From: Hirudinaria manillensis
Lineage: Eukaryota; Annelida; Clitellata; Hirudinida; Hirudinidae
DNA length: 64,000 bases
Assembly: GCA_034509925.1 (NCBI GenBank)
Contig: CM067532.1
Span: 7,310,642 to 7,374,641, forward strand
Direction of reading: 5' to 3'
The position numbers were made by a program, and so were the translations under genes. The notes under the pieces were generated by a model, which ran no database searches, had not been told where the DNA came from, and worked only from the letters and a program-made list of their open reading frames with translations. This document shows positions 20,404-45,100 of this stretch, piece after piece (within the stretch, counting starts at the first letter, position 1; each line of letters begins with the position of its first letter).

Positions 20404-22447
20404 CGCACTCCTCGAACCGATGTTCTGCGGATATCCCCAACCCTGCATCATCTTCAAAGCATATTTTGTTTACTTAATTTTCTCGAATGTCAACAACATA
20501 ACTTGTACTGGACTGTTTATCCAACACGTCTCCAAATGATGAAATAACATCAATAATAGAAGCAATATTTTAATTTAAAAAAATTAAATTCGCCCAAAAA
20601 TCCAGATAATGTTTATAATGAATACTAGTAATAATTATAATAACTAGTATATAATAACAACGATAACATTAATAATAATAATAATAATGACATCTCTAAG
20701 AACCAAATAGCAAAACATGGAGATATAAATAATCAGCAAAATATTCTTGATATTCAATTATATTCTGAAATATATTCAAAATAATTCAACATAAGAGAAT
20801 GGCATTAATTCCAATAATATTTTTAATTACTGAAATCCGTATTCCAAGAAAACAATCGGATTTGAAATGTAATAAACAAAACCATGAAATTGATTCATAA
20901 ATAATCTTGTGTTCTTAAGGAAACGGTTATTGCAAATCTGGTTATGAAAATAATTTATATATTATATTTTACATCATAAAATTTAAAAATAAATTAATAA
21001 ATATTAGTTAATACATGACAACTGAAAGAACCAACCAAAGCAGCTATAAATATGATATAAATGAGCATCATAATGGATATGAGTTACTCATGTCACCTGA
21101 AGCAATTTAAAAAAATAAGTGAATCAATTATAATAATAATAATAACAATAATAATAATCATAATGAATTAAAAGTTAAAGTCAAACTTCTTTCGAGTCAA
21201 AGAGTACAGTTTTAAAATATAAATTGAATAATAAAATAAAAAAAAATAGAATCCCCTGAATGGAGCGTGACCTCCGCATCTTCAACATGAAATTACGAAC
21301 GACTCACAAATCCGTCTGCAAATGAAATTGAATCGACGGAAGAACTCGAGCGCAAGGAGACGACGTCGCAAACTCCGAAGTTCCCCGTCGGCGGAGACGA
21401 GGGACCCGTGGATCGGAAGACGAACCGCGACGACTAGCGGGGAAAACTCACCAGGAAATAAAAAATACTTTCGACTCATAACTCAGAAAAGAAAAGAAAG
21501 GAAAGGGAAAAAAACAACATCTAAAATCTTAATGGATTTACAAATACAAATATTAAATATTACAAGTAATAAAATAATAAATAACTCAATTGAACCAAAA
21601 ACCTTCACAATCGAGGAGCAAAGATGACATGAATCTCGGACGTCGAATTCACGAGTTCCGCCTCGCGATCCGGACGATCGTCATCGTCTGGAATGCTCTC
21701 GGATGGAAAACTCAATTCAACAAATATCCGCTTACAAAGAGCAGAAGACTGAGGTTCGGATAAATATTGCACGAAACATCAAAACAAAACAAAAAAAAAC
21801 GAAACCAATGAACATCATCCGCTTCATAAATCTGACGAAAGACGAGAACGCAAAGAAATAAACGCAAAGAAATAAACATCTGTTGAAACATTCTTCCATC
21901 AAGATGAACACAATGAACACCAACCGATGCTCGGACCATCAAAGTAATGCCTTCGATGATGCGTCACAAAAAGTAGCTTTGCAAAAGAAAGAAATATTTT
22001 AAAAATATGGTAATATGCAATAAGAAATTATTTAAAATACGATAATATGCGATATAAAAACCAATGTGCCCGATAATATAAGTTGCCTCATGACTCTTGA
22101 AAATGTAAACGGAGTTTGCTTGAAATTCACTCAAAAAAAAAAACCCATCAAACCTTTGAGGGACTGAAGAATAAATATAATCTAAATTGTCAAATATAAT
22201 TAGTGACAGGGTGTATTGTAGAAATGGTTGCTGTAAAAAAATAATAGACTGAGGTTTCAATTCATGCATAGTTACTTGATAGAAGATGGAGAAGAAGAAG
22301 AAGAAACTTGAGATAGTCAAGGAAAGTGGAAGAATATGGAAAAGCTATGGAGAAATCCAGCTATGGATTATAGGGGAGATGATCGTGAAGGAGGATGCAG
22401 ATGGTCGTGTGGGAATGAATGCGCCTTGCAATGCCTCGGAATTTCCA
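20404..22447. other. Intergenic region between two minus-strand genes
   Basis: AT-rich DNA with AAT tracts near 20670-20690 and 21130-21160 and a short GC-richer patch at 21320-21440. Contains the 3' flank of the TBC gene; no AATAAA is clear on that strand. Reading frames here have no recognisable motif. Confidence 0.5.
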
Positions 22448-25129
22448 TCAAGGATTCTCCAGCACCTTCCTCCGACATTCCTCCCTCAGTTTCGCCAGCA
22501 ACGACCTTGAAAATGACCCAGGCTCCTTGAAGATGCTCTGACAATGTCATCAAATTTGGTCGATTCAAAACATTGTGATTAATATTACTAATATCAATTA
22601 AATATATAGAAGAATATAGTCGAACTGCAAAACTATATGAACTCACATCAATGAACTGGTGACAGTCGAGGGTCACAGTGTCAGAGGTCATCTTTCTGAA
22701 GACCTCCATCAACTCAGAGAAGTTCCTGCTCTTGAGCAGTTGATTGGAATGCCTTTTGATGAGGGTGATGCAAACCCTGAAAAGGATTTTGTCACCCTCA
22801 AAGAACAAACAATCCCACAATCTCAGCACTGTCTGGTCAAAGGATGTAAATTTTGTTTTTTAATCAACAGGAGAACATTTTAATCCTTCAAAAAAATATC
22901 ATCTCTAATCATGAATAACAAATAAAACAATAAAACCAAAGAATATTGGAAGAAGTAGAAATTGAATTTAATTTTATTCACAAAATAAAATGTTATTTTA
23001 CATATTTTATCTAAAAAATTTTTAATCAGATTAAAACCATAATTCTGTTTAAATTAAATTACCATGTTCTAAAAATAAAACCCACCTCCACAGGCAAGAC
23101 ATCAACAAACAAGCAAATCAACCACTTGGTAGCAACAATGGACCAAGCACAACCACACCTTTCCATCATGGCGTGGATCTCGGGACACTTCATCCTTTCA
23201 AAATATCATTGACTTCAATCCATCTAGTTTCCAGTGTTAAACTTATTTCAATAAGATAATCGTTAAAAGTTAGTTAATAAATAAAATGTTATTATAAATA
23301 TTATTATTATTATAGTATATTATAAATATTATTATTATAGTATATTATAAATATATTATTATTAGAAATATAAAATCATTTGCACGATTATATTAAAGCA
23401 CTATTGAAAGTTAAATAACAATGGCACCAACCTGATCAATTCCCCGAGAACCTCGCAATCCATTTTTATTCCTAACATGTCAGGAGTGTAGTAATCTAAA
23501 GTAGTCAGTCAATTAGATTGGTATTAACATTAATAAAGATTACATCTTGTTATTCATTCCATAACAAATAATAATTATTTAAAAACGTTTGTTTGTTTTT
23601 TTTTAAATATCAGAATGAATGAAAATCATTATTACCTGGTAAGATGACGTTGAGCAAAGTGTCCAGCAACCAAAAGACTTTCTCCTCATCTTTCAAGACC
23701 AGCAGGAGCAGACCGGTTATGAAATTCATGCCCTTAAAATTCATTTATGGCAAATGCAATTCTTTTTCTAATTTATTGAAACAAATGTTTGGAAGCAAAG
23801 CAAGGATAGTTTCAAAAGAGAAGACTTAAATTGACTCTATGGATTGATCATAAGGGATTTTCATTTGGCCAATTTATAATCAGTTTGTGACTAATCATGC
23901 TTGGATGGTCATCTTCTGAAAGATGTTATCCTTTATCACATGATCTACAAGTCCTGCCAAACAATGGTGATTTTCTGCTGCAATTTATTGATTAACTGAT
24001 CGTAATTGAGAGAATAAAGGTGAAGGATAGATAGAAAGAAAAAAGAAAGGAGATAAATTGAAAGAGAAAATGGGAGTAGCAGAACTGATGGGTGGGTAGA
24101 ACCCAGCTCACCCCGGCTGTGCATGATCGAGGTACATCATAAAAAGCATAAAATGACAACCTGGCAATAGCCAGTCTTCTTGTTCTTGTGGGAAACGGCA
24201 ATGAGAACGTTGAACAGCGGACCTCTCTTGCAGTTCGGATCTCCTCCGCTCTCGTCGCGGAAGTAAATGTTGTCCGGAAAAGTCCTGTGGATGTCTGAAG
24301 ATCAAGTTTTCCATGAAATCAAATATTAAAAACGTCATTGCATGAAAATGCAAACCATTTTTAATGGATTCCACGAGTTGAGGATCGTGAGAATCGGCGA
24401 GCAGTTCCTTGTAAAGGTTGGGATTTTGCTGTTTTCTCTCTTCAGCACCACTCAGACCCATCCACATCTAAGAGGAACCAAGAAAAAAGGTCAAAAAAAT
24501 ACAAAATATAAAAATAATAACAATAATAATAATAATAAAAGATGGATTTTACCAGTGGTCTATGTTCAGGAGGAATTCCCTTCCTAATAAATCTTTTCAC
24601 TGCAACAACAATAATTACAATGTTATTGTGGATTAAAAGCAAGGGCAGAAGCTAGGTTTGTTATGAGATAAGAGGGGTGACATATACAAGATTACCATTA
24701 TTGTGAATTGTGTTATATTACATCAATGTCTATTTATGCAATTAACTTGAAATTACATTATTAACAAAACTCCAACTTACACTTTCTCGAAGTCTTGATC
24801 GGCATGCTTTCGTTCAAGAAAGTGGACCATCTTACCGACCTATGTGACATGATATGAAGATACTTGGACATAAATTCCTCGTATGTTTTAAAGTCATAGT
24901 CGTCTGGAAGTGTAAATCCATACGAATCCACGTTGCTGTTGAAACAATAAGGTAATTTAAATCAATGAATTTTGCAGAGAATATCCATTGTGCTGGTGCT
25001 AAATATTGCAAAATTCTTTAAAACAGATCTTAGCTCATGATTTATAGACGTGACTCTAGAAAAATGCACATAAATTATTAAACGGTGCAGAAAACGATAT
25101 CGAACGAACCCGCTCCCCGAATCTGCCAT
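22448..25129 (-). CDS. grtp1: GRTP1/TBC1D6-type Rab GTPase-activating protein
   Basis: TBC proteins stimulate GTP hydrolysis by Rab GTPases in membrane traffic. Ten exons, all in phase, give 337 aa (human GRTP1 is 336): 25129-25110, 24935-24781, 24599-24553, 24467-24356, 24294-24161, 23732-23636, 23495-23432, 23194-23086, 22832-22647, 22537-22448. Near the start NVDSYGFTLPDDYDF matches the GRTP1 DPYGFERPEDFDD region; then KRFIRKGIPPEHRPLMWMG opens the TBC domain. The catalytic arginine finger motif IxxDxxR is present as IKNDIHR (residues 109-115) and the glutamine finger YxQ as YCQ (154-156), followed by GMNFITG. Later CLFVDVLPVE and LRLWDCLFFEGDKI are typical. It ends KLREECRRKVLENP-stop. 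The first exon is only 20 nt (MADSGSG) and rests on a non-consensus GTTCGT donor, so it is the least certain part. Confidence 0.93.
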
Positions 25130-25940: not shown

Positions 25941-28900
25941 ATGCATCATGGCAGACTGCATTTTGGGACTGGGCAACAACAGTTTCATGGAGTCTTTCAA
26001 TCTCCATTTCAAGGTGTTGTTCCACACTTAAATGACCTTAACAAAGTAGCTAAGGACATTATAAACGAAATTGCCGAAAGAAACGAGCATGTAACTGGCT
26101 TTGAAATTGAACGGCTGATGCTGCAAAAGTACAAGTGGGTGTTTAAATTGGCTTCATTGCATGTTTTCTTATAGATTTTATTTAATTTGTAACCTACAAC
26201 ATTATATATGGATTATTGATATACTTTAATTAATGTTCATAACATACTAGCTAGACAATTTATAAATACTAGTCAAACCCTGCAAAAAATATCATATTCC
26301 ACATCACTTGAAATAGTTAAAAATAGTCAAAAATTGAATTTTGTAAAAAGTGCATTTATCTCAATTTATCTTTTTTTTTTGTAAATTCATAACAAATTAT
26401 TGTATAAATGCCTAAGGGTTACTTCGCTCGGTCAAGTGGGACTGGCGAACCTCCGCCACTTGCCATGCTTCAACGACCTGGAAAGATTGGAGACCCTCGT
26501 CAACACCACGGTTGACGGTTACATTTGCAGACGAGGCGTCTGCACTTTGTACGACCTTGACCTACACATTCTTGACCTTCTCAAACGCAACAATAATGCC
26601 AAGGTGCTCGGTTTTATTTTAATAATTTGTGGTTTGAGATTTTTTAAATAATTCTTTTTTTAAGATTTTAATAATTTGAGATGATGATTTTGTATTTCAT
26701 TATATAGTATTGTATTATAATTAAGGTAATTGCAATGCATTAAAATTTAATCCTATTTTTAAATTTATTATGCAGTGTCCTGTCAAAATCGGTGCCGAAT
26801 TGACTTCCTTCGAGGACTTAAAACTCGGTCCTTTCAAAAAGCTTCCCATTGTTCTTGTTTTGTTTCAGGTAATTTCAAATTAGTTAATAACCAATGTCTT
26901 TTTGAGTCTTGGGAATGTTTGACTTCTTAATAAATACTTGAAATAATTAATACTAATTAATATTACATCATAATAAGACTAATTAATATTACCTCATAAT
27001 AATACTAAATAATATTACCTCATTAAATTACCTCAAGAAATAGCCCCGACCATGACAAATGGAACGCCATATTTTCAGGTCACGGAGGACGTACCGATAT
27101 TTAAATTGACGACAACAAAGTTGCTGACGCATCTCGTCGAGTACATGAACAAAAAGAAACACGAAAGAATCGATGTCGCGGATTTCATGGAATCCGTGAG
27201 GGCCTTCCATCAGGTCAAGGACGCCACGGATTTGGGTGTCAAAATCAACAACTTCCCTTTGGTCATCCAGGTCACCATTTTTTTCTTTTTAATTTTGAAA
27301 CATTTGAATTAGTTTTTTAAAATATTCAAACTTTGTTTATAATGATATAGTATAATGTTTGTAATTCTATTAGCTTGTTTTAATTATTTCATGTAATGGT
27401 ATGTTATTGTTCTTACATAACAAGTTAATTACTTGTACAATGCAGACGCTAAAAAGGTTCACCCAAACCAACGAGCAATTCATCAACGGATGCATTCATT
27501 CATGCGAAAGTGAACTCAGTCTGATTGTCAAGGAGGCCTTCAATAGCTTTGTGGCATCAGTGCCTTTCCTCAGACCTGATGGTGATGATAGTGGTTAGTG
27601 GTCTTGACTAATAATCTAAATATAACTATATTTGGCTAATCATTACTACTATACCAACCTGATATTAGACCTGATGATGATAGTGTTTAGAATGCTTTCT
27701 TGAGGTTACTTACAATTATGTTTTGCCAATTATTACTACTACACAACATATTATTAACATATTCCATAATTATAATTTAAAAAAAATTTTAAAAGCAATT
27801 TTTATGTTTATTTCATCGTAGACGATTCTGGAAACCAGAAAAACACCAGGAAATCGACGCACTTTGTCGCAGACGTGTTTTCCAAGTTGCACTACGTTTA
27901 TGTTAAAATCAGAGAAAAAACTTCATCTTGTAAGGAAGCTTGCAAGATCATATTTTTAATCTGAAATTTATAAGGGCTACCTTGTAATGACCTCATAAAC
28001 ATTCATTATCAAATAAATTACATTTCTTGAATTACTTTGTTTGCATTTAAATTTAAAATCTGAATTTAATTTTCGTTAATATAAAATATATAAATAACCA
28101 CCATTTCTTATTTTTTAACTTTGTCGATTTTATGTATTTTATACGTATATCAGATACCGACCCAAAGTTCATAGCAAATAATGGAACGCTAAGAAAGATA
28201 GCACATTTGAGAGATTTGCTTCAAAAAGAAGAGTTGATCAGCCAAATCTTTCAGGTAGTTTTTGCTTTTCTTGTTCACCTTTGAGGTGGTCTTTTGAGAT
28301 TTTGAGATCAATTCCATCAAAAAATCACATTTGCAGATGGCTGTCAGTTGTTCTCAAGATCAGATCAGTGATTTCTTCAATAAAGAAGCAGTCAATCAAA
28401 TTGAATCCAAACCTCAAAGCATTCTTTCCAATGGTAAATTGAGACTTGAAAATAAATATAAAATTATTAATTTCAACTTATCAAAAAACTTTGGACGAAC
28501 AAAACATTAAATTAGCAAATTTAATTTGGATCGAAATTCACGACCGAATTTCAATTTCAGAACAAGTCGTCGAGAAACTGCAAGAATATCTAGAAATTTG
28601 CTTCGAAAGTGGTCCCCCGACTCTGGTTTCTTTGTCGAAAATTGAAAAGAAGATTGTTGATGACATGCAAGTCAACAGTTTTGGTGACTTTTCTAACGAA
28701 GGATTTTTAGCATTTCTTACTGAAAGTGAGGAAACCAAGAAGGTTTGTTAAAAGGAAGCAAAATTCATGGTGTGTCATGGTTTAGATTCCATATTTATTT
28801 GCTTCCTGAAGTTGCTGGAAGAGAACGGTGCCACCAGCCTGGGATCATCATCATCACTGTCATCGGCATCTGGCAGTGGTGCATCTTACAGAGTATCAAT

Positions 28901-31900
28901 GGAAGAATTGAAAGATATTGTGAGACAGTGTTTGCACTTCAGTGGATCAGAAAGTTCCAAGGTTTCCAGGACCCTTTTAACTTAAATATCTTTCAAGGAA
29001 ACAAATATTTAAATATATTTAATTTCTTAACAACCAGACCATCAGATCGGCCATTTGCAACCATTACAAAGTCTCGGACGTTCGGGAGACGGGGTACGCA
29101 GGCAGTTTGGATCAGTTGATGAAAACAAAGAAGGATGTGGGATCCAGTAAAGTCATCTACGAGTCTGCATTGCTGGGCAAGAGTTTGTTAGTATTTTGAT
29201 TGTTTATAAATAATTATAAAAAAATCTGATCATCTTTTTACAATATATTTTTGAGCATCTTATCTAGGCTTTAGACAATTCTATTCTTTATTCTAAATGA
29301 TATATTCTTTATTATATATTAAACGTATTTACACTCTCAACTTGCTAATTTCAGGAAGAAAATATTAAAATCCAAGAGAGCGATCGGTCTTAACGGATCG
29401 ATGAGTCGAGACCAGGCACTCTTGTGCCTCCACAGCTGCCCGCTCTTGCACGACCTTTCCAAATGGTCGAACTGGGATGTCGTCTTCCGGCCAGAACACG
29501 GGGACATCAAGTCCTTCCTGAAGGAAAACGGAGGCGTCCAGCACGTCGTCATGGAAACCGACGGAAACACGGTCAGGACGGACGTCACAGCATTGGAGAT
29601 TCGACCCGGAAAGTTGCTGAAATTACGTTCCGCTTCGAGTGTCGAAGAGTTTAAAAAAGGAGCGGAGGTCGGTGATGCTGCGGAGACTTGCGGACACTTC
29701 GTATCGTGTCTCGTCAACCAGGGAGGGACAGCGTACTTCTCCGAGGAATTGTTTGCCAACACTTTCAAGGTGGCTCTGATGGAAGCTAACGGTATAAAGA
29801 GATGTCTTGCACTTAATAACTTCTGGCAGGACTTGAGGTTATTTTGATGCTTTTTCTTTCTTAAGGGACGGACGAGACCAGGGACATGAACATCGCTCGT
29901 TTCACTCTCGACTGTTTGTGTACACTCCCAGTACTTATTGCAACTTCTCTCATTCAAAAGGTAACTGATTGATTATTTAATTTATTCATGCAAAATTGCA
30001 CAACAAACTTATCTTATTAGTTTGCAACAGTACTGTTTTTAAAAATATTCATCTTTTTTCAAGTGTTTTATTCCTTTTTCTTCAGGTTTTCCTTGAACCA
30101 ATCAGCGAAGTTCTTGGAAACGTCAGGTCCAAGGAGTTGATTCTGGAGGCAGCCAAAGGCGATGTCAACAAAACGAACAGATTGGAACTGCTCGGCTTTC
30201 ACAGAGGAATTTCCGCTTGGTTCGAGAAGTCGTTCGGAGACAAACTGAAGCCCAAGGAAGTCGACATGAAAGAAGTTCGGAGGAAGAACAAGAAAAGAAA
30301 GAGGAACAGGGACGATGCTTCCTTAGAAGTCGAGGAGAAGAAGCCAAAAAGCAAAGTTATCATTTTATCGAATGATAATGATTCTCAAATCAACAAAGTG
30401 ATAATATTATATATGGCAACTTGTTCCTATTTTGATACCATACTTTGTTTTTAATTTATTACATGACTGTAATTTAGTAATAACTGGTGGTGAAATATTA
30501 ATAAATACTATTAATAAATATTAATGCTGCAGGAAACAACAGAACAGATAGAAACTATCAACAACAACAATTCTCACAACGAGATAGAAATGAAAGTCAT
30601 GACCCTTCCAAGTGATTCCGATCCGCAAACCCACAAAGACGTCATCATGGATATGGAAGCAGCTCCGCCCCGACCCGAGTCGACTCCCTTCGACGCAGAC
30701 GCGAAGTCGCACTGGAAGTGGTTGGTGGAGGACATCAGAAGGAACGAGTTCGGATTGGGAGCCGGTCTCGAAGGAGATGGAAAGAAACTCCTGGAAAAGC
30801 AACAGGATCGACTCGGCAGGAGCCTGGAAAGGCTCTCCGTCGACTTGTACAGCCGGGACACTCACTTCCTGCTCGAGTTGGTGCAGAATGCAGACGACAA
30901 TCACTACGAATGCCAGGGGTGAGCAGACGACATTGACGCTTCGATTGTAAATGTTTTCATATTTGTTTTGTAATTTTATTAATCTTGAGATTTTATTATT
31001 TTAACTAGTACTCTTTAATTAGTAATATTACTATAATGATTTCAATTGATTAAAGCAGTGATTGATTTATTTAAACTTAAAAAACAAAATAAAGCCTATC
31101 AAACATCCTTCCAGATCTGCCATACCCTCTCTTCAGTTCGACTTGTACAAAGACGTCATCGTCGTGTCCAACAATGAGGTCGGTTTCAGGGACGTCGACC
31201 TGAGAGCAATCTGCGACGTGGGTCGGACTACGAAGGGCAAGCACAAGCTGGGGTACATCGGGCAGAAGGGCATCGGGTTCAAGTCCGTCTTCAGGGTCAG
31301 CGATCGGCCCGAAGTCCACTCCAGGGGGCTCCACATAAAGTTCGATCTCGGATCCGGCTCTTTGGGCTACATCCTTCCGCATTGGATCGGTTCGCACGGA
31401 AGTGCTTGTGCAAACAGTGAGGCCTTCAAAGTTGAAAGGTTTGTCTCATTTTAAATGTGAAATTGATTCATTTATTTGGATTGATAATTTTTTTCAAACT
31501 AATGAATAATTTATCTAATCTAATGATTCTATGTTTTAACAAATAAATAAATATGAGGTAATTAATATTCATTATCCTCACTTCAATCATTTGGTTTTTA
31601 GTTACACCACGAAATTTGTTCTTCCCCTGAAAATGGCCGAACAAACGGTAGGAATTCAATCGAAATTTCAAGACCTCCACCCGACTCTGCTTCTCTTTCT
31701 TCACAGATTGAAACAAATTACAATCAAGGATGAGGTTGGATCCCCATTCTATCTCTAAATAGCCCAACCTTGATAATTAACATATTATAATGAGACTGCA
31801 GCTGTAGTTTTAAATTAGTTTATAATGGTCAATAATAATAATAATAAATTAATAATTAATATTAATAATCAGATAAAAGGTGAAGTGAGATCCATGAAGA

Positions 31901-34900
31901 GGAATGATCTCGGAGGCAACGTGACGGAAATAATCCACGACGGAGGAGCGGAAAGGTGGGCATTCGTCAAGAAGGTAGTGGATGCCTCCGAGGTTTCAAA
32001 AGAGGTAATGACTCTTTAACTAATTTGTTAGTTAACTAGTTTAATTCATTAATGTTATTCGTTAATATGTACTGATTGGCAGATCATTTGTTGTTATTTG
32101 ATTATATTTTGTTACTAGTTTAATGAAAATTATAAATGTTAAAAAATTAGGCAAAGTCAGGAGTTGAACTGCAGTCCACTGAGCTGGCCATGGCTTTCCC
32201 CATTGATGAAGATGATGATGATGACAAGCAGAAAGTATTAAATTTCTTTTATTTCATAAAACATTTTTTGTTGAATATTATAATATAATTGTAAAATAAA
32301 ATGTTTTAATTAAATTAAAAATTTGTGTTTCAGTCTAATTTCTCCCTTCCTCCAAAACAACCACTGTTTGCATTTCTGCCACTCAGAAGTTACGGCTTCA
32401 GGTTCATCATTCACGGTTCGTTTCAAGTCCTCCTTCGACTTGTTAAATGTTTTTAATAAATTAATCAGCTAATTAACTAACCAAAATACTAACCGCGTCG
32501 TGAGTGCAGGCGACTTTGATGTGCCATCTTCGAGAGAGGATGTTGTTGACAACCTTTGGAATCAGTGGCTCAGGAGCAAAATACATGTCCTTTTCCTGGA
32601 AGCTCTCGAGTTTTTCAAGGTTTCTTAATTTTTGCCATTTAAATGAATTAATGAAAAAACAATGAATTGCATACGAATTTATTTATTTATTTACAATTTA
32701 GTGAATGCATCTTTTGCAAGTATAATGTAGTTTTTATAAGTTGAGAAGAAGTAACTTGCAGTAATATTTTATAATATAATAATGGAGAATTTTGTCTTTA
32801 CTTGTTATATTACAATATTTTATTATTGAAAACTATTTTAAATTGAGACTATTAATCGATTATTTCTAATGGATTGAATCTGATAACTGAAACTTAGCTG
32901 TGATATTTTGAATAATTGGTTTGATTTTTTATTAAAAGAATTTAAAAAAGCATTTATTCTTTATTTTAAAAGTCCAAAAAGGATTCAGATCCGGTGAAAG
33001 AGGTCTGCAAGTTTTTCAAATTCGTGCCTCGAGAAGACGAAATCCTCGATTTCTTCAGACAGGTGGCGTTCAACATCATCACCAACCTCAAGATTTCAAA
33101 ATGTCTGCCATCAGCTGGTAGGAAAATTTTGTTTGTGTGTTTCTAATTGAGATTTTAATTAGAGGACTTTTAAGTTGCTTTAAAATAAATTTAAATATAA
33201 ATTGTGCAGTTATTAACACTTTATATATTACTTTTTTTGTCCTAAAAATTCATTCATTTATTCATTTAGACGGATCTTGGTGCTACCCGTCACAGCTCGT
33301 GATGTGTGATGATGTCACCACCAGAAACTTCGTGACCTCTGAACTCCTGTACGGTCAAACTGGCCTAGATTACCTCCACCCAATGGCAGCCAAGACGGTA
33401 GATCGTTCCATTCTGCTCGAAGTGGGTGTGCAACTCTTGAGTGCCAAACATTTGATCCAAGTTGGCAAGGGAATGATGAAGAATATTCATGAGGAGATCG
33501 GAGATACCAATCAAATTTCTGGTTGGTCTTTCTTTTTTAATAACTCACAATAATCTTGGACATATCGCACATGATTAAGTGTATCATTTCATCACAAAAA
33601 AAGATTAACAAATATATAATATTTTGAATTTAATATATATTTTTTTAAATAATTTCAGATGGGCACATTCAACAGGTGTACACATGGCTGTGCTGCATTT
33701 ACAATGCACTGGGTGACCTCTTTACAGAGAGTAGTGATGTCATCGAATCATTGAAAAGCATACCCTTCGTTCCACTTTCTAGCGGGCAGTTTGTCAGCAT
33801 GGATCGCTCCGTGTCCGTGTTCTTTCCTTTCTCTTCGGGAAACAATTCCGTTGGTACTGGAATCGCAAACAACCAGATGTCGAAAAGTAATTTCATTTCA
33901 TTGTATTTTCCATTTTGCTAACATTGTTTTTTATGTTGAAATTTTAATTCAAATTATGGTAATTTATTTATATAAATTTATTTATGTTATATAAATAACA
34001 TTACAATTATTAATATTATGTGCATAATTCATTATATCTATTGCAATTATAAAATATAAATTGTTTGATATATAAACAATATAATATAATATATAAACAC
34101 TTGCAATTGTTGTCTACCAATGCCAAAATCATGAACTTCTTCTCAGAGATGGTCAGACTCCTGGAAGAAGACTTGAACTCCGTCGACAGTAGGATGTTCT
34201 CCAAGTCAGAGGATCAGGTTTCCAGGTTGCACGTGTCAAACGTCCTGGAAAGGATCGGAGTTAAGAAACTCAACGACAAGGATCTCGTGAAGCATCACAT
34301 CCTACTTTCTCTCAAAGACAAGGACAAGTTTAAGGCAAGGGTTTTTCTTGATTAATTTTAATAAATAGATTTATTTTAAAAACTTTTTGATATTTTTGTC
34401 AATTAATTTCAACTAAATAACACAAATTGATATTTTTATATTAAACTTATAAATTTATTAAAATAATAACATTACTTTAATATTAATGTTATACTCTTGC
34501 TTCTTTCAGACCCTATCAAAAGACCTGTTGATTGCATACACGGTTTGCCTCAAAAACTACTTCCACGTCCACCCATCCTCATTCCCCACCACCGACGTCA
34601 TCCAAAACCTCCCCATTTCCACCTCCAAGGGCATGGTGAAACTCCACAGGAGTTCTGTTCACTTTTCAACAGACTTCAACAACTTCTTGAATCTCCAGCA
34701 ACAATTTCCTGGTTTGTTGTTTTTTTTTTTTAAATTTTAACTTAATTAACTTGATTTGAATTTTAACTGATAATTTAACAATTGTTATTTTAACAAAATA
34801 CTTTGGGTTTTGTGCAATTTTGTACTTCTTTTTGTATGCCTAAAGTTATATTTGCTTTCTGCAGAGAGTTATCCTATGTTGGCTTGCATAATAGTAATAA

Positions 34901-37900
34901 TCTCATTAACGACACGTCATAATTTCATCAAAATAATATTTGATTAATAATAATAATAGTTTATAAGAAATGTTATTATTGTCTTGAAAGGCCTGAAATG
35001 GACCACCCTCGACAGTGGTTACCTCAACGGAAACAAGAGTTTGTCAAACGTATCTTCCTGGAGGGAATTCTTTTTGCACCTCGGAGTCGAAGACTTTCTG
35101 TCGTTCAAGAAAAAGAAGTTGACCTTTGACAAGAAACTTCTTGTTAGTTCATCAATTATTCAATTAACAAAATATTTTTCCAAACCTAATTATTTTGGAT
35201 TGTAAATAAATGAATAAATAATTGAAACATTAATGTAACATTTAAAAATTAATTACTATGATTTTTTTTTTATTTCATTGTGTTGTCACTGTTGTTATTA
35301 TTATTAACGTTATTATTATAATATTATTTCTATTCAGGAAGAGTCCATTTGGCAAGACCATGCCCCCATGCTGATTGAAGGCTCGACGTGCACAGTTGAC
35401 GATTGGACTTGCGATGAATTCAAGCGGTTGGTTTCCATGGATACCGAAGACTCCTCTGTGCAGCAGCAGTTGAAGAAGCTTTTCGAGTTGATCAACAAGT
35501 TTTGGGTGTTGAATGAGAATTCGGCATCGAACGTGACGAACTTGTCCCGGTTCGCTCAAGCCACGATCGAGGTCAAAGGTTCGGATCGATCCGTGTCGGT
35601 TCAAAGTTCGTTCGGGCAGCTCGTGAAGACGTCGAAGTGGATGCCCGTCTGGAAACTCGACGCGGAAGAGAAGAAGCAGCTCCTGATAACCGCTCCGAGC
35701 GAACGGATCATTGCAGAGAGCAGGGAGGCTCTCTCCGTCTTGGGTCATCGCGTCCATTATGCAGCCATAAAGCCGGAAAATCTACAAAAGGAGTTTGCAG
35801 ATTTTGTCGGCATCCGAGCGGTTCTGGAACCTTCTTACGTCGTTCGAGAATTGGTTCGTTGGAGCGAGGATAAGGCTGATGATTCCCCGTTGAGAATGAC
35901 GCGAGTTTACGGCTACCTCGAAGATTCTCTTTCTAAAGCGGAATTGTCGAAACTGGTAGCGGAACATCCCATCATTTACTGTCCCAACAAATTGGTTGGC
36001 GGTTCTTTTCTCTTTGGTCACGAGGTTTGCTGGCACGATGAGACGGAACTCATAGAGAAATACTTCGGCGATTCCAAAAGAATGCGTTCTGCAATTCCGA
36101 GAGCATTGAGCTGCAGCTATCCGACCTCCGTCAAGGATTTCTTTACGAGGATTTGCGGCGTGGCTCCTTCTCCGAGCGTCTTCGACTACGCCCACGTCTT
36201 GACACACGTCACGGCCGCGAATCCCGTCGACGACTCGACTTTGGCGAGCGTCCGTAAACTGCTCGCCATGCTGGAACGATTGTCATCCGAAGGAACGAAG
36301 GAAGAACGAGAGAATACGCTGGGAAAGATCGTCGAGATATTGAAAGACAAGCAGTTCATTCCAAACAAAGCAAACAAATGGATATCTCTTGCAGAGGAAC
36401 CCATCATAGCAGATAACAAGCAGTTCGAAAGAATGTTCCCCTCTTGTGCCTATTACGTAAATGTAGAGGACTCGGGGAAAGGCAAGCATAGCAAAGGAGG
36501 AAAAGATGGCATCGAGTTCCTTCGAAGGATCGGAGTGCCGAGACTGACGGAGCTCGTGGAGGTGCAGCCCGTGACGGAGATGTTCCAGCCGTGTCCGGAG
36601 TTGGGCACTCACGTCGCGTCCGTCGTTCCTTACATTCAGAGATGTTTGTTCTTTGAATTCCCCTCGATATACGAACATCTCACCAAGGAAGCAAATGTCG
36701 TCAAGAAGCTATTTGAAATGGGATTTGCAAAGGTTAAAAATCTGCTTACATTAGTATTCAAGGAATAAATTTGATTAACTCGATAATCGCTGATTAATAA
36801 TTCATAATTAATTTATTAATGTTAATTTTCAAAGGTTCAAAAACTGGAATTGGCGCATCACCTGAAGTTGAAAGGACCTCAAGCGGACGGATTTCCAAGA
36901 ACCGCCGTTTTGCCAAAAACCTGCCACGTTTTTGACGGCATCGTCTTCGTTCAAGAAGATTGTGTTGACAATCATTTGGACATCAACAGAGAACTTGCTT
37001 CTTATTTTAGTCAAGTCACCAGAGTCTGTCCTTCTCTAAGAACCTCTTGTTTCAATGAATTAAAGTAGGAATTTATTTTTTATAACTTTTTGATTTTAAT
37101 CATGAAAGTATTTTCAATTTTTTTATTAAATCATTTGACATTGTCTTTCATTCTTTTTCTCTTTCGTTTTAGGAGCATGCTTTCCGAAATAACTCCGTTA
37201 CTCGCCCGCAAAGACGAAGCGATGCTAGACAAAACTTTGGAAGAAAGAAATATTTTTAAGTTGCCCGTCACTGAAACGCCATGGATTGTTGGGAGATGTG
37301 GTCATCCAGGTAAGAATAAAATATCAAAATGGTTTTCATTTTAAATGGAATTTTAAATCAAAAACAAAGAAAAAAAAACTATTGCCATTTCTTGTGATGC
37401 TTGTAATACAAAATTTGTCTTTCATTGAAGTTCACAACGTTGCCGAGATGTGCCCAACTGCGTCGAAGGTTACGTCAGAGACCGACTCTGCACCTGCTTC
37501 GGTCGACATGTCTTTCAAAGGAGATGACGTGACACCGTCAGGTGGGAAGGCATGGCCGTTGTTGAACCAGCAACCCAATGTTGGTTTGGTTCATCAGAAT
37601 TTTCATTCTACGCATTACAATGAATTTTACATGGTCAGTGATACACTTTTAAATTGATTATATTTTAGTTTGTGATTAATTTGCAAAAAACTAAACTTTA
37701 TTAAAATTGGTTATTTTAAGGACTTCCAAGTCAAAGTAAAATAAACATTTTTATATTTGTAGAATCCTCAAGTTATCAACTATGGAAATCAAGTTCAGTC
37801 CATGAGGCCTCCTGTATTCCACTGTGAGTCTCTTGATTTTTTGAAACAATAATTTTTGGAATATTCATGGCAATATTTTAAAATTATTTAATAACTTTAT

Positions 37901-38677
37901 AATGATTAATTTAATAATTCGTTTCATAATTCAGATCCTTCGGTCTCTCAAGAGCAGTTGGCACAGGTTGAGGTCGAATTACCCCTGAAAGCCCCCATGA
38001 GGGAAGACTTTGACCTTCGTGTCAACAACTGTCAGAATCCAGAGTTCAGTGGAATGTCAGGAGAACTTTACGTTTTTGATTATTTCAAGAAACTCGCAGA
38101 GGCACCGGACTCTGACATAGCCGAGGTGAGCATAACAAATTGCAGCATGTTGGTCTTGTAAAAGACCTTTATATTAAAGATGCCACAGACTTTATTTAAT
38201 TTAGGAATTTATTACATCGTTTGTTATTTGGGGAAGATTCTAAATTATATGGAATATAGTTTGTTGCGGAGAAAGATTCTAAACTATTATTAAATCTACT
38301 CTTTAGAGTTAACATTAACATTGACGTGATTCTCAAAGTACATCAAAGTCAATTGTCGATCGCAGGTGACCCACATGAACGCGGAAGGGCTGACCACCAC
38401 CCCTTACGACATCGTCTTAAAAAGAAAGAGCGATGGCGGACTCACCTTCATTGAGGTGAAAAGTACGACACTGCAGGACAAGGCCTGGTTTGAAATCAGT
38501 TTGCAAGAACTTCAGTTTGCAGTCGAAAAGGAGAGGAATTACCACGTCTACAGAGTCTTTGGCATCGGGCAGGATGGTAGCAGAGTCCGACTCACGAAAG
38601 TCGAAAATCTCAAGGAAGTTCTGAACACGAAGCAGGCAAAACTTGCGGTCGTTTTTGGTGAAAGAACAAATCTCTGA
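25941..38677 (+). CDS. NO VEIN-like protein: GHKL ATPase plus C-terminal DUF3883, about 2,463 aa
   Basis: Exons join in phase: 25941-26134, 26417-26603, 26776-26868, 27079-27270, 27446-27593, 27822-27929, 28154-28254, 28337-28433, 28561-28742, 28812-28961, 29038-29186, 29355-29791, 29866-29960, 30086-30397, 30533-30918, 31115-31438, 31602-31734, 31873-32004, 32151-32234, 32334-32415, 32510-32619, 32973-33117, 33270-33521, 33659-33886, 34147-34334, 34510-34711, 34991-35142, 35338-36732, 36835-37064, 37173-37309, 37431-37633, 37763-37823, 37935-38125, 38366-38677. FEDLKLGPFKKLPIVLVLF near the N-terminus matches plant NO VEIN. A basic patch (RRKNKKRKRNR, 776-786) suggests nuclear import. The Hsp90-like ATPase shows the N box ELVQNADDN (930-938), NNEVGF (963-968) and the glycine loop GYIGQKGIGFKS (990-1001). 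Further NO VEIN signatures are FAFLPLRSYGF and WREFFLHLGV. The C-terminus (about 2310-2455) is DUF3883 with GELYVFDYF, PYDIVL (D2375) and IEVK (2389-2392), a PD-(D/E)xK-like pattern. In plants NO VEIN acts in vascular patterning; the animal role is unknown. The junction at 34334 uses either a GC donor or a weak GT six bases later. Confidence 0.93.
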
Positions 38678-42188: not shown

Positions 42189-45100
42189 ATGCTCATATAC
42201 GACGTGCCATTATTTCAATTTGCCATTCCGGTGGTTGCGGTCATTTTGTGCGTCTTTCTAGTTTTCGCTTTTGGCTTCAAATCGCCAGGAACGCCTCCAA
42301 CTCTGGACGTTCAAGATGACGAAGAAAGGCTTCAAAAGCCCAAGAAGAGTGGCGGAAAGAAATCAGTGAGTGATATTAATTTTGTTGTCGTGTTCGTTGT
42401 GGTGGATATTTGATGGAGTGAGTCATTAATTTATCGGAGGTTGCTTGGTGCGCAGGTGTTGATGCTTGCCTTTACAATTTTCCTTTGCTCATATCATACG
42501 AAGTCATGTGAAGCCAAGCAAGCAGACCCCTAGGGTTTATGAACCATTAAATTTATTTCTGCTGAGCAATTCAATTTTATCATCTTAATTCACCAGAGGT
42601 AACTTCATATGCCGTGATGGGTGTGGAATTTTGTCAGTTTATAATGTGACCCTGTCTCTTGTTGCTTTAACTATGGGCAGTCTGGATTATTTTATCACTT
42701 TGTCTTGTTTTTTTAAAACACATTTTCTCCTTTAACTTTGTTGGAACGTATTGCCTTCAAATTGCATTTAAAGGCTTGTTATTTCATTACATGTAATAAC
42801 ATGTGCTGGATTTAAATTTCTTATGCATTTATAATAACATTGTGAGTTATTATGCATTGGTGAATCAATAGTGAGTGGCCAATCAGCCTGATATTGAATG
42901 TTAAGTTTAAAGCCAGATGTGATATCCACATCTTGTTTAGTAAACATAGTAACTAAAACGTGATCAAACAATCTCTGACTCAATTTCAAGTGGCCTGTGT
43001 TTATTTTGGGATCGATTTGTTTTTTAATGAATTAATTTTGCACTCACATGAATCACGAGGAGTGTTCATCACAATGCTGTGAAATTATGTTGAATGAGGT
43101 AATAATCACAATGCATATTAATCATTGGTAATAATCACAATGCATGTTAATCATTGGTAATAATCACAATGCATATTAATCATTGGTAATAATCACAATG
43201 CATGTTAATCATTGGTATTCTGCCTGCAGTAATTATTATTATTGGGACAACTGTGGGAAAAACAGATTTTGAAGTGTTTGGTTTTCACAAGTATGAATGA
43301 AAAGGACGTTTTAAATGATGAATTATTATTTTTCTTTTTAGGAATTGTTGTTCTTTTTGATTTAAATTTATTTTAGCAATTTTTAAGTATTATTTTAAAT
43401 AAATAATTTTTTTTCTCGACTAATCTTCAGGGAAAGTCCGCCGACGTTACCTTGGTGATCAACACAAAGCAGCCATTTGTGGCCCCAAAACCACTCAACA
43501 ACATTCACAATAACCTCAAAGTTTCCACCGTTTCGGCGTCTGCCGAGAAGCCGCAAACCGAACAACCAAAGCCCAAGGCAGAGTTTTGTTGTTTTTTGTT
43601 GTTTTTTTTTTAATGAGTTTGCAAACCTGGGGACCATGCATGGGTGGCTAGAGACAATACTTGGGTGGCCTGAGTGGGTAGCCAGGGACAAAACCTGGGT
43701 TGCATGTTATGAAGATATATAATTTCATAATTATAAAATATATAATATATAATTATGAGCATATTTTAATGCTCAGTTATTGGACGCAGGATGACGTCAT
43801 AAATTAAATAAGGTGAGGCCACGTTGTATTGAACCATGTTGTCTTGTGAAAGAAAAAGGGCTGTTGTGTTGTTTGACTGTTTGTGAAGAACTTGCACTTA
43901 TTGATAATTAAAATATTTAATAAATGAAATATATAATAAATGGTTATTCATTTTTTATTTAATCGCGTTATTAATTCCTTGTACGTTGTTTAGGCTAAGA
44001 AACCTGCCCCAAAGAAGGTTGATGAAAATGCAAACATCTCAAATGCTGCAGAAGAAGGTTGGAAACATATTTTTTTATTGACTTTCTTTGTGTTTATGTT
44101 AATGTTAATCATAATATAACTGGCAATTAATTAAACAAATTAATTACTGATGTCATTAATGATAATTGCAATTGGCAAATCTTAACGATGGCAAATTCAG
44201 TAGGCGATTGGACGACCGCAGTGTCGAAGAAGAATCGTAAGAACCAGAGCAAGAAGAAGGAGGGTCTTGTCGAACCTCTCTTGGGCTCAAAAGTCGACAA
44301 CAAGGAGCAGGAGGTCATCAAGGAGAGCAAAGAGCAGGAGGTCATCAAGGAGAGCAAAGAGCAGGAGGTCATCAAGGAGAGCAAGGAGCAGGAGATCGTT
44401 GTCCAGCAGGTCAAATCTCTTCCGTGTTTTTGGAATAATTGCTCTTCATTCTCTTGTGACTTTCTTCGAGTTAAATTTTTTGTCGTCTGCTTTGCTGCAG
44501 GTCGAAGTCGAGAAGGTGGACTTCGTGAAGGTGGAGGAGCAGACTTCGGTTTTCGAGGAGAAGACCCCCGTCGTGGATGAGAAGACCCCCGTCGTCGATG
44601 GACCGGTCGCAGAGGAATTCACGGAGGTGACGAAGCAGAAGAAGAAGCAGAAGAAGAACAAGAAGGCCGAGGGAGCCCAGGAAAACATCCCCTCTTCGGA
44701 AGCGACGCTCGTCCGGGAAATCCGAGACGAACCGGCGGCGGAGGACGCGAGTCGCGTCGCCATGGAAACGAAAGAGGCGGAAAACCGCGAGCCAGCGGAA
44801 CTCGGAGGAGACGTCGAGCAGGAGAAGGCGGAGGTCGTGAAGTCCAAGAAGAAGAAGAAGAAGCCGGAAACGAGGAAGAATTTCCAGGTGAACTGTCGAG
44901 CACGTTCGAGTGGCCATTCTCGAACGGTTGCCATGCTTTCCTAATTACAAATACTTTTTTTGAACGTTTAATTAATGTACTTGGATGCTTAAAAATTGTT
45001 CTGTAATTTTATCATTCCTTTAATTATGCAGATAATTAATTTATTATTAATTAATAAATAAATAATTTTAATTAATTAATTAATAATTTCAATTAATTAA

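Follow-up and report, generated by a model that had tools for sequence, protein, structure and literature searches.

A gene of the leech Hirudinaria manillensis was analysed in a 64 000-nucleotide window (GenBank assembly GCA_034509925.1, contig CM067532.1, positions 7 310 642 to 7 374 641), to which all positions below refer. The gene (25941-38677, + strand, 34 exons) encodes a predicted NO VEIN-type protein of 2451 amino acids (aa) that matches the defence-library protein TmtA over nearly the whole TmtA model. The product is probably an animal TmtA homologue working as an ATP-gated nuclease, a reading to which we assign a probability of about 0.62.

Match to TmtA

The leech residues from aa 842 (1610 aa) were matched by the PADLOC model PDLC03972 (TmtA) with 406 bits (1.1e-121), in a single stretch covering model positions 21-1290 of 1302. 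A GHKL/S5 ATPase, a long middle region and a NOV_C-type end follow each other in the same order in both proteins. What sets the leech protein apart is an N-terminus longer by about 850 residues, the presence of introns in its gene and a basic, nuclear-like stretch. We equate TmtA with the protein encoded by the anti-phage system Tiamat, reportedly described by Millman et al. in 2022. A passage of PMC12926258, with references to Doron et al. (2018) and Millman et al. (2022), lists Tiamat among the systems whose mechanism is unknown. The match of an animal NO VEIN-type protein to an anti-phage protein over nearly the whole length of the latter appears to be new.

The whole leech genome was scanned in six frames with PDLC03972 and all candidates were scored. 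Sixteen places were found. Only the NO VEIN-type gene matched the end of the model (1186-1290), and the matches elsewhere were confined to model positions 38-368. Since the ATPase is widely shared, it is the match to the whole model that distinguishes the NO VEIN-type gene. The same genome (148 Mb) gave one match with the NOV_C profile and 59 matches, exon by exon, with Wnt, as expected of an animal genome.

Gene model and controls

The gene was modelled with an independent dynamic-programming splice-and-codon program that took ten open stretches of the region as seeds. An earlier sequence-only reading had proposed a 34-exon gene with all exon phases joining; the same exon count, ends and strand were recovered, with a product 12 residues shorter (2451 aa vs 2463), so that its D2375, E2390 and K2392 are D2363, E2378 and K2380 here. 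The phases do join, and this was rejected as evidence for a gene, because shuffled sequence yields joined chains too: ten local shuffles run through the same program gave 30-39 joined exons each, but products of 974-1201 aa. Score, length and homology were relied upon instead. The exon-model score was 1661 for the real region vs 416-512 for the shuffles (n = 10), 919 for the reverse complement and 410-771 for four other stretches of the window on both strands. GC content was 0.47 in exons and 0.22 in introns. An initial model that used re-training grew to 61 exons by overfitting and was discarded.

Protein homology (BLASTP) spans aa 863-2199, in one high-scoring segment pair (HSP) with the prokaryotic relative L020, and aa 2344-2429 with the relative L033. 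With the Pfam NOV_C match described below, it makes exons 15-30 and 33-34 well supported; exons 31-32 are less so. Exons 1-14 (25941-30355, aa 1-801) form an N-terminal extension modelled on coding signal and are uncertain. No counterpart of this extension was seen in the prokaryotic relatives, no Pfam family scored above cut-off in aa 1-817 (at E up to 5, only sub-cut-off matches) and the N-terminus had no credible match by sequence in PDB (best 0.08). It contains the basic stretch RKNKKRKRNR (aa 777-786, 30281-30310), which resembles a nuclear-localisation signal. The extra residues and this stretch would probably serve targeting or control.

ATPase head and middle region

A scan of prokaryotic genomes gave 253 relatives. 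The best 80 of these were used, together with six plasmid proteins taken from 20 plasmid records with a match, making 86 proteins, copies included. TmtA was matched by all 29 long relatives scanned (29 of the 80). L033 is colinear with the leech protein over aa 912-2189 and then 2344-2429.

The GHKL ATPase and S5 transducer occupy aa ~863-1220 (exons 15-22, 30716-32978). This part was matched by TmtA (2.3e-72), NF047352 (1.6e-19), Pfam SACS PF25794 (44.6 bits, cut-off 32.8, 2e-11) and a Calothrix protein, which is the best relative among the best 80 of 253 (40% identical over query residues 8-363). The ATP-binding motifs are intact. They comprise the N box ELVQNADDN (from aa 916, 30875-30901), whose E916 and N920 columns are invariant in the 24 rows of alignment A5, the G1-type motif NNEVGF (aa 949, 31170-31187; NNE..F in 33 of 86 relatives by the pattern used) and the G2-type motif GYIGQKGIGFKS (aa 976, 31251-31286; IGxxGxGFKS in 75 of 86 relatives, fragments counted). 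R1190 of SSRED in the S5 domain (32533-32535), invariant in alignments A1, A3 and A5, is presumably the ATP-sensing arginine, by analogy with Hsp90. The fold alignment of the ATPase held 24 of the 80 rows. ATP would be bound by the head and the S5 domain, which probably form a dimer that closes like the Hsp90 clamp. The long middle region (aa 1221 to ~2200, 32979-37440) is colinear with L020, L033 and the TmtA model, and repeated helix-strand blocks are seen in the predicted model of a relative; it may relay the movement of the clamp or bind the target.

C-terminal NOV_C domain

Pfam NOV_C (PF13020) was matched at aa 2328-2419 with 60.2 bits (cut-off 22.1, 2e-16), which confirmed the DUF3883 end named in the sequence-only reading; that reading's other motifs (GELYVF, PYDIVL and IEVK, besides those of the ATPase) were likewise present. 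The PD-(D/E)xK-like domain covers aa 2324-2418 (exons 33-34, 38051-38575, internal intron 38126-38365) and carries the motif E, D, ExK as claimed. E2328 (38063-38065), the helix-1 glutamate of SGELYVF (aa 2326), aligns with GE of near relatives of the GWGE/GEGE type, e.g. L033, L025 and L051. D2363 of PYDIVL (aa 2361, 38408-38410) and E2378 and K2380 of IEVK (38453-38461) are each found in 51 of the 51 relatives with the domain; these 51 were detected by a profile that includes the motif, which in part ensures such conservation, and the rows include copies (P0001 = L058; L076 = L077). An alpha-beta PD-(D/E)xK core was seen in the predicted model of the relative L033. Foldseek with the nuclease-domain model gave no match below E 0.001. 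The leech C-terminus itself matched nothing in PDB by sequence (best 0.44). In the leech protein, the domain would then cut nucleic acid with metal ions.

The nuclease reading of the NOV_C end is well supported and is not new. Passages of the literature term DUF3883 a novel restriction endonuclease domain (PMC3710099), treat it as a presumed type II nuclease (PMC10609329) and describe, within restriction systems or close to them, GHKL-S5 proteins that bear E-D-ExK nucleases (PMC2292703). The SPARDA nuclease and the Hjc resolvase are further comparable systems, set apart by 11-20% identity and other partners. To our knowledge, paraMORC3 has no long middle region. It resembles the leech protein as a GHKL-S5 ATPase with a C-terminal E-D-ExK nuclease, as described in part of PMC2292703.

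The NOV_C-like domain was detectable in 51 of the 86 relatives, the remaining 35 including fragments; 45 of the 51 rows entered the fold alignment. After exclusion of 12 of the 80 relatives as cut off or short, the last 330 aa of 68 relatives gave NOV_C in 50, HNH_2 in two, and HNH, NucS_C and OST-HTH in one each (double counting possible). Ten C-termini, nearly all without a detected domain, were inspected singly. One, L037, proved to carry NOV_C; L020, whose HSP is the longest among the relatives, has an HNH_2-like domain at its end (4.1e-4, slightly under the cut-off), L063 ends in a clear HNH, and several others had no recognisable end domain. A common ATPase body with exchangeable nucleases makes the C-terminus look like an effector position.

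An HNH-type end replacing NOV_C was recorded in TmtA-like proteins at L020:4974-9596, L063:7545-12623 and L007:7815-12500. Helicase parts (L045) and a DUF7669 domain (L030) also occur at the C-terminal position.

Comparison with sacsins

Sacsin shares the SACS-type ATPase with the leech protein. It differs in ending in DnaJ and HEPN (PMC3710099, in part), whereas the leech protein ends in NOV_C. Pfam returned a single SACS match and neither DnaJ nor HEPN in aa 1-817, 842-1625 and 2153-2451 and in an exon piece (aa 1610-2074), so that the sacsin layout of three ATPase modules, DnaJ and HEPN was not seen in these pieces; aa 818-841 and 2075-2152 lay outside the scan, and diverged middle repeats are possible. 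Two pieces, of 1219 aa (L089) and 1240 aa (L091), taken from long sacsin-like frames of the leech genome, matched PDLC03972 in the ATPase part with 54 and 46 bits. The tested sacsin pieces thus match TmtA in the ATPase part only, the leech protein nearly throughout. In the ATPase model of the relative L008, Hsp90s and sacsin SR1 (24% identical) were among the nearest solved ATPases. A tree of the ATPase alone separated the leech protein from the sacsins with support 99 (40-row set); the split was dropped because of the approximately unbiased (AU) test given below. The relatives in the tree had been picked for similarity to the leech protein.

The sacsin-like genes (L089, L091, L094 and others) sit at three places on contig C11, each with one open frame, of 3356-3561 aa. 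A further GHKL-type frame (2892 aa) lies on contig C7 near 6.99 Mb.

Evaluation of the alternatives

Besides the partly built-in conservation of the motif, several points weigh against an ATP-gated nuclease of TmtA type. The structure models are those of proteins of prokaryotic relatives and not of the leech protein, and the ATPase model has a predicted template modelling score (pTM) of 0.48. PDLC03972 also matched in 5 of 14 control prokaryotes. The L089 and L091 pieces, each about a third of its frame, reached 146 and 148 bits in the ATPase part with PDLC03965, a second TmtA model. The AU test, confined to the ATPase, did not reject a clade of the leech protein and the sacsins (p 0.373). That test leaves room for a chaperone or scaffold of sacsin type, with an ATPase that would remodel proteins and a C-terminal domain that would only bind nucleic acid or protein, and both the SACS match and the proximity of Hsp90s and SR1 to a relative's model agree with it. 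The nuclease active-site residues are kept, however, relatives swap NOV_C for other nucleases, and no other place in the leech genome matches the C-terminal part of the TmtA model, and we judge such a function quite improbable. Somewhat less improbable, and still unlikely, is that two adjacent genes were read as one: an unrelated gene of exons 1-14 and a TmtA-like gene of exons 15-34 with its start inside exon 15. The donor of exon 14 is weak (0.4), matches to prokaryotic relatives start at aa 855-863 and joined exon chains occur by chance, but the coding score is positive for each of exons 12-16. Plant NO VEIN presumably has a long N-terminal extension as well, which we count against two genes.

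The proposed ATP-gated nuclease fits either of two settings, and a housekeeping role in the nucleus was ranked above a defence role directed at viral or mobile nucleic acid. An ancient TmtA-like protein may have been tamed to a housekeeping or developmental nuclear enzyme (repair, transcription or chromatin), with an active nuclease, the same mechanism, another target and no part in defence; this is plausible, at somewhat less than even odds. The leech protein resembles NO VEIN of plants and Wu:fj29h11-type animal proteins, by their description, in its NOV_C (PF13020) and Hsp90-like ATPase. The plant role is developmental: plant NO VEIN, the founder of the family, is quoted in a passage of PMC12289216 as a nuclear factor required in cell-fate decisions, which also stands among the points against the main reading. 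According to parts of PMC12690905, in which NO VEIN and Wu:fj29h11 are named as one homologue, the metazoan homologues of NO VEIN are all uncharacterised, and the one of an acanthocephalan is female-biased and grows in abundance with body size, which is not an immune pattern. The single NOV_C match in the leech genome is not that of an expanded family. Homology to a defence-library protein over nearly the whole model and the defence genes near prokaryotic relatives speak the other way, without being decisive for the role in animals.

It is rather doubtful that eukaryotes from plants to animals kept the whole prokaryotic anti-phage machine TmtA as NO VEIN, with ATP-gated cutting of viral or transposon DNA or RNA in the animal nucleus, forming an unrecognised branch of cell-autonomous immunity. 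The sequence-only reading, which had suggested an ATP-driven clamp coupled to DNA cleavage or binding and a nuclear defence or surveillance role, is partly supported, mainly as regards the nuclease: the analysis shows homology, the order of domains, intact motifs and the fold of relatives, while ATP gating, cleavage, nuclear site and any defence role are inferred. In plant-associated metagenomes, 100% of Tiamat systems were on plant genome sequences (PMC12409356, PADLOC database 2.0, seen in passages that do not mention NO VEIN), and these matches are presumably NO VEIN itself. If the TmtA reading holds, a plant vascular-patterning protein, uncharacterised in metazoans according to PMC12690905, would be the eukaryotic form of an anti-phage protein, the plant location of all Tiamat systems in those samples would be explained, and the target of TmtA, the function of NO VEIN in plants and the animal inheritance of defence would become testable together. 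No literature linking Tiamat with NO VEIN, or NO VEIN with GHKL, was found in a search that most subscription papers lay outside, and the connection may already have been published; PMC11249213, a review, has none of Tiamat, GHKL and NO VEIN in its main text.

Genomic neighbourhoods

On a Sulfuricurvum plasmid (L006:7255-15790), a NERD-domain gene is followed by the GHKL-DUF3883 gene and then directly by qatABCD. Another plasmid relative has a helicase gene as its neighbour and a restriction endonuclease gene at a greater distance; another lies near a cytosine methyltransferase gene, and others have few recognisable defence genes around them. PADLOC matches around the relatives included GajA, GajB, BrxL, PglZ, a type I methylase and nuclease, SIR2, HerA and LmuB. 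The scan covered 114 open reading frames (ORFs) at 22 loci, at most six per locus and each cut to 450 aa, and was made without a random-locus control, which lessens its weight. Among the 25 of 342 matching families listed, a NERD+UvrD model came top (7 of 114 ORFs). The NERD gene is a possible partner of the GHKL-DUF3883 gene.

In viral contigs scanned with the ATPase, 69 stretches fitted a pattern and none was confirmed. PHROGs, searched with two exon pieces, gave nothing for the ATPase piece and one weak match (0.029) for the last exon.

Within the leech window, long overlapping open frames were noted at 44127-44944 (246 aa on the + strand, without a Pfam match, and 157-164 aa on the - strand). 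A neighbouring gene on the - strand (22368-22859) encodes the end of a RabGAP-TBC domain (6.8e-8).
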